From assembly GCA_900315075.1 (NCBI GenBank), contig OMXV01000026.1:1-64000 (forward strand): a DNA stretch of 64,000 nucleotides, in the 5' to 3' direction. This document shows positions 19,539 to 22,808 of this stretch, piece by piece. Under the pieces are notes generated by a model, which saw only the letters and a list, made by a program, of their open reading frames with translations, did no database searches and was not told where the DNA came from. The stretch is from an uncultured Prevotellaceae bacterium. GTDB lineage: Bacteria; Bacteroidota; Bacteroidia; Bacteroidales; Bacteroidaceae. Position 1 is the first letter of the stretch; each line of letters begins with the position of its first letter. A program made the position numbers and the translations under genes.

Positions 19539-20051
19539 ATGCATCCATTGGATAAATTCACCCACTGCCCTGTCTGCGGCAGTTCAAATTTCGGAATTAA
19601 CGACGAGAAGAGCCGCCGCTGTCATGACTGTGGCTTTGAGTTTTACCTTAATCCCAGCACTGCATACGTGGCACTGATTTATAATGATCAGGGGCAGTTG
19701 CTCGTAGTACGCCGCCAATGTGAACCCGCCCGTGGCACACTCGACCTTCCTGGAGGCTTCGCAGACATCGGTGAGACAGCTGAACAAGGTGTTGCCCGTG
19801 AAGTGCTCGAGGAGACAGGATTGGAGGTCATTCACACAGAATTTCTTTTTAGCCTACCCAATACTTACCTTTATTCTGATTTCCCCATCCCCACTCTCGA
19901 CCTTTTCTTCCGCTGTCAGGTGCGCGACATCTCCACCCTCCATGCTCATGACGATGCTGCAGAATGTATGTGGCTCCATCCACACGACATCAACCCTGCC
20001 CTTTTCGGCCTCACATCTATCAGAAAGGGAGTGGAGAGGATTATTAATTGA
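19539..20051 (+). CDS. Nudix hydrolase with N-terminal zinc ribbon
   Basis: 170 residues. A CPVCG...CHDCG four-cysteine zinc ribbon at about residues 9-31 precedes a Nudix fold whose signature runs from GGFADIGE to REVLEETGLEV (G-x5-E-x7-RE-x2-EE-xG). Nudix enzymes hydrolyse nucleoside diphosphates linked to another moiety; zinc-ribbon members include NADH pyrophosphatases, but this one is short and its substrate is not determinable. It is preceded by an 11-bp array and its TGA stop lies in the terminal repeat of the MITE-like element. Confidence 0.85.
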   Translation: MHPLDKFTHCPVCGSSNFGINDEKSRRCHDCGFEFYLNPSTAYVALIYNDQGQLLVVRRQCEPARGTLDLPGGFADIGETAEQGVAREVLEETGLEVIHTEFLFSLPNTYLYSDFPIPTLDLFFRCQVRDISTLHAHDDAAECMWLHPHDINPALFGLTSIRKGVERIIN

Positions 20052-20245
20052 AGTTTCGTAAGTCCTCAACTTCTAGGTTATAAGGTTATAAGGTTATAAG
20101 GTTATGAGGTTATAAGGTTATGAGGTTATGAGGTGAAATATGCTAAAAGATGTCATTAGCCGTACATATATCAACTTAAAACCTATAAGCGTAGCGACCT
20201 CAAAACCTCAAAACCAAACGAAACTGGAGCTTGCGAAAGTTGAGT
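20047..20245 (-). repeat. MITE-like element, copy 2 (inverted)
   Basis: Inverted copy of 15747-15922: starts TTGAAGTTTCGTAAGTCCTC, continues with 8-bp AAGGTTAT units (more than in copy 1, explaining the greater length), the GCGTAGCGACCTC core, and ends GGAGCTTGCGAAAGTTGAGT. Its outer end overlaps the Nudix stop codon. Confidence 0.75.
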
Positions 20246-20288
20246 TATTAATAAATAGTCAACTATAAATTTTTGAAAATATTTTTCT

Positions 20289-20326
20289 ACTGCGCATTAA
20301 AACTGCGCAGTATAGCCTTACCTTTG
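20289..20326 (+). promoter_or_regulatory. promoter with overlapping 8-bp dyad, Ro60 locus
   Basis: TACCTTTG at 20319-20326 is a full TAnnTTTG match. No TTTG is present at -33; instead an 8-bp perfect inverted repeat, ACTGCGCA (20289-20296) with TGCGCAGT (20304-20311), occupies that region. A promoter with a good -7 and a dyad in place of the -33 element suggests control by a DNA-binding regulator, possibly an activator. Confidence 0.55.
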
Positions 20327-20340
20327 CATCGGAAATTACA

Positions 20341-20690
20341 AACAAGGGGTGCTCACCCCGAGTGAATAAAGACCAAACAAGGGCGGTTCGCGTTCAGGAG
20401 AGATACTTCGTTTTTTAACTTTATTTTCGACACTGATAATTGGCCGCCAAAGTGTGAGGCTATGCCGAGCACAAAGGCGAGAGGCAGGTTCTTACCTCCT
20501 ATCCAAACAAAGTTGGATATTATGACTGGATGTCTTTGTACAACAAAACATCTCTGATTTCAACCTCTCTCCTCGTCCGCGGAAAGATGCCACACGAAGA
20601 CCCGCTTGCGAGTTGACGTAAGGCTAATGGAAACGGACATTACCACCGCCCTTGTTTTTAAACAAAGCGTTGGATTTCATCCGACCCTTT
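20341..20690 (+). ncRNA. large structured RNA upstream of the Ro60 gene
   Basis: A 13-bp perfect stem, AAACAAGGGCGGT (20375-20387) with ACCGCCCTTGTTT (20645-20657), encloses 257 nt with further hairpins: ACACT/AGTGT with inner TTGG/CCAA (20430-20455, 5-nt bulge), ATCCAA/TTGGAT (about 20500-20518), GATGT-TTTGT with ACAAA-ACATC (about 20529-20552). Outside it, GGGGT/ACCCC (20346-20359) lies 5' and GTTGGAT/ATCCGAC (20669-20685) 3'. It has no long reading frame and ends about 85 nt before the Ro60 ATG. Ro60 proteins bind Y RNAs, often encoded next to the gene, so this is either a Y-RNA-like partner or a structured leader. Transcription and boundaries are inferred. Confidence 0.6.
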
Positions 20691-20771
20691 CCTCGCCATG
20701 ACAATGTCCAAACGAGTTCGCATTGTTCATTTGGCTTAATGAAAGCGTTCTTTGAAAGACTTATATAAATT

Positions 20772-22655
20772 ATGAGTTACAACGAAAAGCTACGTTGTGA
20801 CTGTCTGACAACCAACTACGAGGGTGAAAAAGCGTGGCTACTGACACCTGAGTGGGAACTCTACACAGCTGTTGTCACTACGATGGGCACCGAGGACAAG
20901 TTCTATGAGCGTGGAAATGACCGCGTTAGGCGTATCGCTGAGTTGGTGCGAAAGGTTGATCCCCTATTTGTGGCTCAGCTCGCTATCTATGCCCGCGAGA
21001 AGATGTACCTGCGCAGCGTACCGTTGCTCTTGCTTGTCGAACTTGCCCGTTGTTACCATGGCGACTCATTAGTCAGCAAGGCTACTGCCCGTACGGTGCA
21101 GCGTGCCGACGAAATTACCGAATTGCTGATGTGCTACCAATGGCGTACAGGTAGGAAGTCCCTTTACAAGGTGAGCAACCAGTTGCTTAAAGGACTGGCA
21201 GAAGCCTTTAACCACTTCGACGAGTATCAATTGGCCAAATACGACCGCAAAGACCGCAAGGTGACTCTGCGCGACGCGCTGGTGTTGACGCATCCTCGTC
21301 CGAAGGATGAGGCACAGGCCGATATCTTCCGCCGAATCCTCGACAATCAGCTTGAGACACCCTACACATGGGAGACGCAACTCTCAAACGTGGGCCAGCG
21401 GAAATTCTCCACGAAAGCGGAGAAGGACGAAGCCAAGCGCGAGTCATGGCGCAAACTGATTGCCAGCAACCGTCTCGGCTATATGGCCACGCTCCGCAAC
21501 CTACGCAACTTGCTCGACCTACACCTCGACAGCGAGAGTATGAAGCGGGTTTGCGACTACCTCGCCAATCCCACTGCTGTACATAATAGTAAGCAGATGC
21601 CCTTCCGATACCTGTCAGCTTATCTGCAGCTCTTCAGCAATAGCGGCAAGTGTGACTTTACGGCAACCTATCTCGAAGAGATTCTTTGCAGAGTTTCTGC
21701 CGTGAAGAATAAACTGGAATCAGTAGTGAGGCTGATGGAACAAGGTTTCTTCAAGGCAAGGGTGAGAAGAACCAGCAGATACTATGTCGCTGGCAATACC
21801 ATCTTCGACAATGCTGTTATCAGAGGTAAACTCCACTTTAGTCCAAAAAAATATCACCTTCGGAAGAGCAAGCTATCGAATCGGTTGTTTGTGCACCCCA
21901 ATGAGAGGTGCCTGGCACAGCTTCGTAAACATAGGGAGTGGCTTGCTACAGCTGTACGACGTGAGGAAAAGTTTCGGAAGAAATTTCAGAAACGGGAACT
22001 GAAGAAGGGCAACAGCAGATATCTGGTCTATCGGGCACTCGAGGAGGCCGTCCGTCATACGGCGGACAACATCCCCGGCTTTGCTTCTGATACTCGTATA
22101 TTGTTGGCAAGCGACACCTCAGGCTCCATGTGTCAGTCAATAAGCAGAAACAGTAAGGTGATGTGCTATCACATCGGACTGCTGCTCTCGATGCTGATGA
22201 AACACAAGTGCAAGGATGCCGTCACAGGTATGTTCGGTGACATCTGGAAGGAGTATGAGATGCCATCTGAGAACATCCTGCACAACACGAAGGAGATGAT
22301 AGCACTTGAGGGTGAAGTGGGTTATTCCACCAACGGCTATTTGGTCATCGATTGGCTTATTGAGCAGACAAGGGTGATGGACAAGGTGATGCTCTTCACC
22401 GACTGCCAGTTGTGGAACAGTAATGGTTGGTTCTGCAGCGGTAGTCTCTCCGAAAGTTGGGATAGGTACAAGGAAATTGCCCCCGATGCCAAGCTCTACA
22501 TCTTCGACCTCGCTGGCTACGGCCATAGTCCCGTGGATATGAAGCGCGACGATGTGTTCTGTATCTCAGGATGGAGTGACAAGGTGTTCGACATCCTCGC
22601 TGCACTGGAGCAGGGTAGCAATGCTATCGACGAGATCCGCCGGATCGTCGTATAG
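20772..22655 (+). CDS. rsr: Ro60/TROVE-domain RNA-binding protein (Rsr-like)
   Basis: 627 residues; the N-terminal about 300 form the TROVE alpha-helical repeat ring (LTPEWELYTAVVTTMG near the start, KVDPLFVAQLAIYAREKMYLRSVPLLLLVELAR), the C-terminal about 190 a von Willebrand A fold. The metal-site motif D-x-S-x-S is intact (Asp448, Ser450, Ser452, in DTSGSM). Family: ring-shaped proteins that bind misfolded RNAs and Y RNAs and help in RNA surveillance or decay under stress. It is longer than typical Ro60/Rsr (about 530-540); a basic stretch at about residues 320-420 may be an insertion. No rtcB/rtcA genes are adjacent. A structured RNA lies upstream and another candidate downstream. Confidence 0.93.
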   Translation: MSYNEKLRCDCLTTNYEGEKAWLLTPEWELYTAVVTTMGTEDKFYERGNDRVRRIAELVRKVDPLFVAQLAIYAREKMYLRSVPLLLLVELARCYHGDSLVSKATARTVQRADEITELLMCYQWRTGRKSLYKVSNQLLKGLAEAFNHFDEYQLAKYDRKDRKVTLRDALVLTHPRPKDEAQADIFRRILDNQLETPYTWETQLSNVGQRKFSTKAEKDEAKRESWRKLIASNRLGYMATLRNLRNLLDLHLDSESMKRVCDYLANPTAVHNSKQMPFRYLSAYLQLFSNSGKCDFTATYLEEILCRVSAVKNKLESVVRLMEQGFFKARVRRTSRYYVAGNTIFDNAVIRGKLHFSPKKYHLRKSKLSNRLFVHPNERCLAQLRKHREWLATAVRREEKFRKKFQKRELKKGNSRYLVYRALEEAVRHTADNIPGFASDTRILLASDTSGSMCQSISRNSKVMCYHIGLLLSMLMKHKCKDAVTGMFGDIWKEYEMPSENILHNTKEMIALEGEVGYSTNGYLVIDWLIEQTRVMDKVMLFTDCQLWNSNGWFCSGSLSESWDRYKEIAPDAKLYIFDLAGYGHSPVDMKRDDVFCISGWSDKVFDILAALEQGSNAIDEIRRIVV

Positions 22656-22746
22656 CAGTCAGACTGGAACGACAAGGCTTAGAGGACTGGACTCCCGGGA
22701 TGGGAGCCGCCTCACAGGTTCCTCCTCTTACGAGGGGTTCCGGCGG
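22656..22746 (+). ncRNA. structured RNA candidate after the Ro60 stop
   Basis: The 90 nt between the Ro60 stop and a strong terminator can fold: GG(A)CTCCC with GGGAGCC (22689-22708), CCGCC (22707-22711) with GGCGG (22742-22746), and inside it CCTC-TTAC-GAGG (22724-22735). Two GGTTCC motifs (22718-22723 and 22737-22742) recall tRNA T-arm sequence, a feature of some bacterial Y RNAs. In enteric bacteria Y RNAs are encoded after rsr. The fold competes between two stems, so it may also be only a 3' untranslated region. Confidence 0.35.
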
Positions 22747-22788
22747 AAAAAGCGGGGGCTTGCATACATGTGCAAGCCCCCGCTTTTT
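22747..22788. terminator. bidirectional intrinsic terminator
   Basis: Perfect 18-bp stem: AAAAAGCGGGGGCTTGCA (22747-22764), 6-nt loop, TGCAAGCCCCCGCTTTTT (22771-22788). The A and T tracts at both ends suit termination of the rightward Ro60 transcript and the leftward GH43... region boundary alike; the leftward gene ends at 22809. Confidence 0.95.
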
Positions 22789-22808
22789 GGCTAAGGTGGC
22801 GTGATATG

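Follow-up and report, generated by a model that had tools for sequence, protein, structure and literature searches.

A probable enlarged Y RNA without a recognisable tRNA-like part, encoded ahead of an insert-bearing Ro60 in Prevotellaceae

Ro60 is a lupus autoantigen with orthologs in commensals, and for that reason the RNA partners of a gut-type Ro60 are of wider interest. Which RNA, then, might partner the Ro60 encoded in a 64,000-nt stretch of DNA (hereafter the window) from an uncultured Prevotellaceae bacterium (GCA_900315075.1, contig OMXV01000026.1, forward strand, positions 1-64,000)? An initial annotation had placed a large structured RNA ahead of this gene and had offered two readings of it, a Y RNA of a new type or a leader sensing Ro60 or RNA damage.

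The region between the promoter-like box and Ro60

The perfect 13-bp stem said to close this RNA is indeed present in the letters, where 20375-20387 and 20645-20657 are exact complements separated by 257 nt. Nowhere else in the 64 kb do exactly complementary 13-mers stand 100-400 nt apart. However, 40 first-order Markov sequences held a mean of 0.375 such pairs per 64 kb (maximum 2), so that over the whole window the pair is not, as had been supposed, unlikely by chance, and by itself it is weak evidence. The fold of the surrounding region (20341-20690) is more distinctive, with an energy of -111.6 kcal/mol (z -4.73) that none of 100 shuffles equalled. As proposed, the region appears non-coding and lies between a TAnnTTTG box, which we take to be the Bacteroidota -7 box, and Ro60, whose product passes the Pfam TROVE and vWA_Ro60 cut-offs. 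Ro60 itself is the only reading frame longer than 39 aa on either strand over 20300-20771, and a coding region was accordingly rejected. A hairpin with a GATAA bulge can also be read in the letters (ACACT-GATAA-TTGG-CCG-CCAA-AGTGT, 20430-20455), but it is absent from the minimum-energy fold and, by eye, has no counterpart in relatives. No Rfam family matched in the window at cut-off, none of relevance appeared in 20050-20800 at E values up to 10, and simple promoter and terminator scans added nothing further. The features of the locus are as follows.

20288-20312, no strand assigned: palindrome TACTGCGCA-N7-TGCGCAGTA, a likely operator (from the letters)
20319-20326, + strand: TAnnTTTG promoter-like box TACCTTTG (from the letters)
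20346-20359, + strand: small 5' hairpin GGGGT-GCTC-ACCCC, ahead of the RNA
20375-20657, + strand: enlarged (type-1) RNA, probably a Y RNA, kept in 11 loci
20375-20387, + strand: P1 5' arm, paired with 20645-20657
20396-20402, + strand: P2 5' arm AGGAGAG, paired with 20567-20573
20403-20410, + strand: AUACUUCG segment, common to canonical Y modules
20483-20499, + strand: hpA, inner hairpin GGCAG..CUCC
20501-20518, + strand: hpB, inner hairpin
20567-20573, + strand: P2 3' arm CUCUCCU (hand alignment and RNAalifold)
20575-20638, + strand: hpC, hairpin set between the P2 and P1 3' arms, GUCCG (20575-20579) with CGGAC (20634-20638)
20645-20657, + strand: P1 3' arm, with a T run after it
20664-20747, + strand: dispersed repeat AAAGCG-TTGGA..TTAATG-AAAGCG, outside the RNA (DNA search)
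20747-20756, + strand: putative rRNA-type boxA GTTCTTTGAA, just 5' of the Ro60 ATG (motif match)
20772-22655, + strand: Ro60 (TROVE and vWA), 627 aa (Pfam and fold matches)
21639-22016, + strand, approximate: part of the gene that codes for the TROVE-vWA insert, residues ~290-415 (linker comparison)
22682-22748, + strand: second conserved structured element (nine loci aligned)
22749-22789, + strand: terminator-like hairpin with a T run (from the letters)

Conservation of the RNA and its flanks

Relatives of this Ro60 were found in 19 of 299 genus genomes and in 11 of 399 in a family sample, and from a scan of named genomes the best 80 of 457 Ro60 relatives were retained. Eleven loci from nine genomes (the window, L077-L083 and L085-L087) have the RNA directly 5' of Ro60, in one copy per locus; the upstream DNA of L084, at 113 nt, is too short to show its presence or absence. 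We refer to this class as type-1. Its RNAs are 141-283 nt long, the window copy being 283 nt and two of the 11 shorter than 150 nt, and they share the order AAGGGCGG..CCGCCCTT (P1), TTGACGC or a variant, GGAGAG (P2), AUACUUCG, hpA, hpB, CUCUCC (P2), hpC and P1. At least four T residues directly follow the P1 3' arm in 10 of the 11 loci. A GGGG..CCCC hairpin stands at the place equivalent to 20346-20359 in L077, L078, L080 and L085, the other short members being without it by eye.

When 398 genus genomes were searched with the type-1 pattern, six sites were found in five genomes and none with the reversed pattern; all six adjoin a Ro60 coding sequence, one of them truncated. There was no exact match to the pattern in a viral collection. 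We also note that 74 loci of that collection (L176-L249) encode Ro60 relatives.

The helices of the 11 loci were aligned by hand. Paired residues occupy 338 of the 363 cells, a count attained by none of 2000 shuffles, and compensatory changes occur in 14 of 33 pair columns (P1 1/10, P2 1/7, hpA 1/5, hpB 6/6, hpC 5/5). Six of the seven P2 pairs are invariant, the end pair alone varying, and hpA is paired in 54 of 55 cells. Since the arms of hpB and hpC had been picked by eye, we added a MAFFT alignment of the six short members, from which RNAalifold recovered all five helices, with both-side changes at nine of 38 pairs (P1 four, hpB three, hpC two; P2 and hpA without any). A lack of compensatory changes in the outer stem of relatives had been named as refuting the proposal; this was not the outcome, since both-side changes appear by each approach, at four pairs in the six-sequence RNAalifold result and at one of ten in the eleven-sequence hand alignment; the inner G+C-rich core of P1 is nearly invariant and so says little on covariation. 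The hpC region of the window copy is paired differently in its minimum-energy fold. Most of the relatives come from metagenome assemblies, which limits direct testing.

These data bear on whether the stem might be a chance pairing, or the product of a mobile repeat, with no RNA function. The Markov expectation given above would allow for such a pair, and a real dispersed repeat does adjoin the RNA: a DNA search with 20341-20771 hit 92 of the 299 genus genomes, for the most part at ~20658-20753 or in the last 33 nt, and the repeat near 20658-20753 is dispersed and often tandem in many genus genomes. Yet the stem is conserved with compensatory changes, and the repeat lies outside the RNA and by eye is seen in none of L079, L081 and L082. 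This explanation, already contradicted by the comparative data, is hardly credible.

Neither the repeat nor the last 33 nt, which resemble an rRNA leader, is part of the structured RNA. The motif in these 33 nt was present in all nine contig ends examined (a 16S start is visible in three), and GYTCTTTGA stands 202-294 nt before eight of the 10 16S starts examined (five genomes; 10 of 19 found), both misses being in G122. In 12 of 12 type-1 loci a looser boxA motif lies 24-33 nt ahead of the ATG and does not recur elsewhere in the 1200 nt; the reverse strand gave two of 12. From its sequence, the motif before the Ro60 ATG is a putative rRNA-type boxA.

Upstream, CGCA-N7-TGCG is found 11-12 nt before TAnnTTTG in 28 of 96 Ro60 upstream regions, of both types and including some duplicates, versus 10 of 96 in a reverse-strand control. 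As to possible regulators, of 93 sources searched 21 encode a relative of the WYL/WCX regulator of L079, and L081, L083, L086 and L087 are preceded by a sigma-70-region-2 protein; the window has neither, and a NUDIX gene instead. Short direct repeats such as GGTTATAAGG/GGTTATGAGG and CCTCAAAACC lie upstream of the palindrome, at 20090-20220.

Downstream of the Ro60 stop there is another structured element. Across nine loci its mean column identity is 87%, with both-side changes at two pairs; it is absent from L082, and L083 and L085 end ahead of its position. Nine of 398 genus genomes carry it, six beside Ro60 and three (G773, G729, G201) after a small reading frame, and in two of these last three a palindrome and promoter box of the kind described above come first. 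At these three loci (L278, L279 and L280) the frame is basic (56-70 aa, ..FLTH..WTL..), and there is no adjacent type-1 Ro60. Two of the small basic proteins preceding the element gave no Pfam match above cut-off, and the window's genome returned no convincing relative (best E 0.15).

Relation to canonical Y RNA modules

Type-2 loci, by which we mean Ro60 loci of the same genus whose protein is without the insert described below, hold small modules, arranged in arrays, that have the strand TTGCCGTAG-N8-TACTTCG. Five sources were scanned, and in three of them these modules match the Rfam YrlA model at 28.1-43.5 bits, under its cut-off of 69, and only two modules, both in L043, gave full-model matches, also sub-cut-off.

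We built a Y matrix from 163 unique modules drawn from 63 type-2 loci. At fixed spacing, 20387-20410, a site that includes AUACUUCG, ranks first in the 64 kb over both strands (9.5 bits; runner-up 7.0), and L083 scores 20.7 bits; the RNAs of L077, L079, L081, L082 and L087, which have longer spacers, were missed. At variable spacing, the RNA site ranks first in nine of the 10 other RNA-bearing loci and second in L082 (10.1 versus 10.5 bits). It is third in the window, with 8.2 bits; 40 Markov sequences gave a higher mean maximum, 10.5, and eight of them attained the window's best score, 12.8 bits. Among type-1 RNAs, the window copy belongs to the most divergent.

A covariance model (R1) was made from six short type-1 RNAs, with the window left out, and run on 80 Ro60-locus sources (732 kb; matches up to E 10). 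It recovered the six training sequences and, with exact ends, five held-out type-1 RNAs, of which L078 and L085 are near copies; the window RNA was matched end to end, over exactly 20375-20657, at 32.6 bits (E 1.5e-4). There were 33 further matches, led by L109 (43.5 bits, E 6e-7), and 31 of them hold the canonical Y motif 9-16 nt inside the match start. It is in this placement of matches that the strength of the R1 evidence lies, because only four of the 33 reach E <= 0.005. When R1 was applied to 45 additional sources, five of six matches fell in the 13 with Ro60 loci, and the other sources, 27 repeat loci and five 16S loci, gave a single end-truncated match of 7.9 bits. With filters off over 6 kb, the window RNA was split into partial matches of 18.8 and 17.1 bits, one of the partial matches being at 20483-20527, and a terminator hairpin scored 15.5. 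Since R1 finds the window RNA and nearly all further matches carry the canonical Y motif, we regard the window RNA as a divergent Y RNA by homology. At the level of single strands, TTGACGCAGTGGAGAGATACTTCG of L083 and the canonical strand given above are homologous, and in L088-L156 the type-1 5' strand (two mismatches allowed) occurs only as the canonical strand of L114, GCTGCCGTAGTGGAGAGATACTTCG.

Could the RNA be a structured RNA of some other kind, unrelated to Y RNAs, that stands before Ro60 by chance? Neither the window RNA nor eight other type-1 loci gave an Rfam match, and the cargo hairpins are unlike any known RNA compared; against this, R1 and the matrix connect the type-1 and type-2 classes, and 11 of 11 copies stand before Ro60. 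We consider this very improbable. Taken together, homology and context support the type-1 RNA as a Y RNA, and the part of the initial annotation that proposed a new type of Y RNA is supported, as regards homology, by the relatives, the covariation, R1 and the matrix.

A second alternative accepts the Y-like stem and confines its action to cis. On this view the RNA, never released, would form the 5' leader of the Ro60 mRNA, bind Ro60 by its stem and thereby repress or destabilise the message that carries it. The single copy per locus, directly before the Ro60 ATG and behind one promoter-like box, would suit such a leader, and this position leaves room for a role in cis, such as the sensing leader of the initial annotation. 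However, the type-2 homologs are tandem modules, some of them downstream of the gene, and 10 of the 11 type-1 copies end in a T run; a leader needs neither tandem nor downstream modules. We think a leader of this kind unlikely. By contrast, that 20375-20657 is a Y RNA and the partner of the adjacent Ro60, one of an enlarged class in which no tRNA-like part is recognisable, is in our judgement very probable.

The type-2 arrays themselves vary. Multi-module Y arrays with differing inner parts lie before or after the type-2 Ro60 in L088-L156 (for example, L097, L119 and L148), with tRNA-like letters between some modules. In L044 (1359-1439; G111:C43) the inner part of a Y module matches positions 1079-1158 of the bacterial 23S rRNA model at 63.9 bits (cut-off 50), presumably the GTPase-centre (L11-binding) region. 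Among the loci covered by a regular-expression search, such a module was found at L044 alone. Against rRNA operon stretches of three genomes, this cargo matched one stretch at 91% over 35 nt, and the type-1 inner module gave no match longer than 14 nt.

The Ro60 insert, a possible mechanism and comparison with known systems

Foldseek returned 13 matches to the window protein at E <= 0.001, all of them Ro60/TROVE chains. Against the NCBIfam Rsr equivalog NF041674 the protein scores 27.1 bits, far under the curated cut-off of 900. The type-1 proteins are distinguished by ~120 extra residues between TROVE and vWA: from the TROVE end to the vWA motif there are 148-228 residues in nine of nine parsed type-1 proteins, against 42-43 in all 62 others parsed (unparsed type-1 proteins were L085, at a contig end; L086, which is split; and L080, missed by the pattern). 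AlphaFold (12 sequences) gave a mean pLDDT of 79.8 and a pTM of 0.54, and the insert is predicted as helix-strand-helix-strand-helix, a long helical hairpin with a strand-rich tip (pLDDT 55-57). A tree built on the first 290 residues (37 rows, without L086) places the 11 type-1 proteins in a single clade with support 100/99; L109, which has the most type-1-like canonical module, branches outside both Ro60 groups. The type-1 RNA is co-inherited with this insert-bearing clade, and computation establishes its homology, shared fold and location as well. We also note a second Ro60 in the window's own genome (contamination estimate 6.96%), which is of type 2 and accompanied by an array (G000:C61).

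Bacterial Y RNAs are described, in the accessible parts of PMC8394870, as a Ro60-binding stem joined to a tRNA mimic. The accessible parts of four sources (PMC8394870, PMC8058203, PMC4726728, PMC7790460) have the stem formed by pairing of the ends as the element that binds Ro60, and in Deinococcus a Y RNA as the tether between Ro60 and PNPase. In the window RNA, P1, the internal loop, P2 and AUACUUCG form a stem homologous to that of canonical Y modules in related bacteria, and because of this homology they are expected to anchor the RNA, most likely on the outside of the Ro60 ring. The inner hairpins hpA and hpB, the lineage-specific hairpins and hpC may constitute an effector module that replaces the tRNA mimic and is perhaps held by the extra arm of the type-1 Ro60 clade; the differing module and arm should then set the partner. 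Like other Y RNAs, this one would gate or tether Ro60 for the handling of structured or damaged RNA. It is probably transcribed together with Ro60 from a promoter at the palindrome and released either through processing or because transcription terminates at the T run that follows P1. It is this T run, in 10 of the 11 loci, and the arrays found elsewhere that lead us to infer release from the Ro60 transcript.

A wider idea, which we put forward tentatively, is that in Bacteroidota the Y stem may be a general scaffold on which Ro60 displays interchangeable modules: tRNA-like, a 23S look-alike, or a large non-tRNA module that co-evolved with an RNA-handling Ro60 arm. Every module might bring in a partner of its own, or else serve as a decoy against one particular RNA-targeting attack. 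Because the type-1 class has kept the stem, is without a recognisable tRNA mimic, has gained a hairpin in the 3' strand and is accompanied by a Ro60 with an extra arm, it is a natural experiment that can tell the parts anchoring Ro60 from those choosing the partner, and the purpose of Y RNA modules becomes testable through module exchange.

Among known RNAs, the closest comparison is with YrlA (RF02553), which according to the accessible parts of PMC8394870 adjoins the Ro60 gene, is 90-150 nt long and has 5' and 3' ends that pair to give the stem that anchors Ro60 in known members. No tRNA or YrlA match was found in the window RNA or at the RNA of eight other type-1 loci (L077 and L085 left out), and YrlA membership was rejected, as no tRNA-like domain was found, the RNA is too long and there is no Rfam match. 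In the open literature, as far as its accessible parts go, we found no description of a large tRNA-less bacterial Y RNA or of an rRNA-like Y cargo, although an earlier one is possible.

The window RNA resembles YrlA in being encoded beside Ro60 and in the pairing of its ends to a stem. It differs in its length, 283 nt (141-283 nt for the class) against the 90-150 nt given in those parts of PMC8394870, and in the hairpin inserted in its 3' strand. The type-2 Y modules have a stem homologous to that of the type-1 RNA and the same kind of palindrome and promoter box; however, type-2 loci (L037, L062, L109 and others) carry several small modules with tRNA-like or other cargo and a Ro60 without the insert, whereas type-1 loci carry a single larger RNA. 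Finally, the window protein shares TROVE and vWA with Ro60/Rsr proteins such as 2nvo and 1yvp, its best Foldseek matches, and adds to them the ~120 residues between the two domains.
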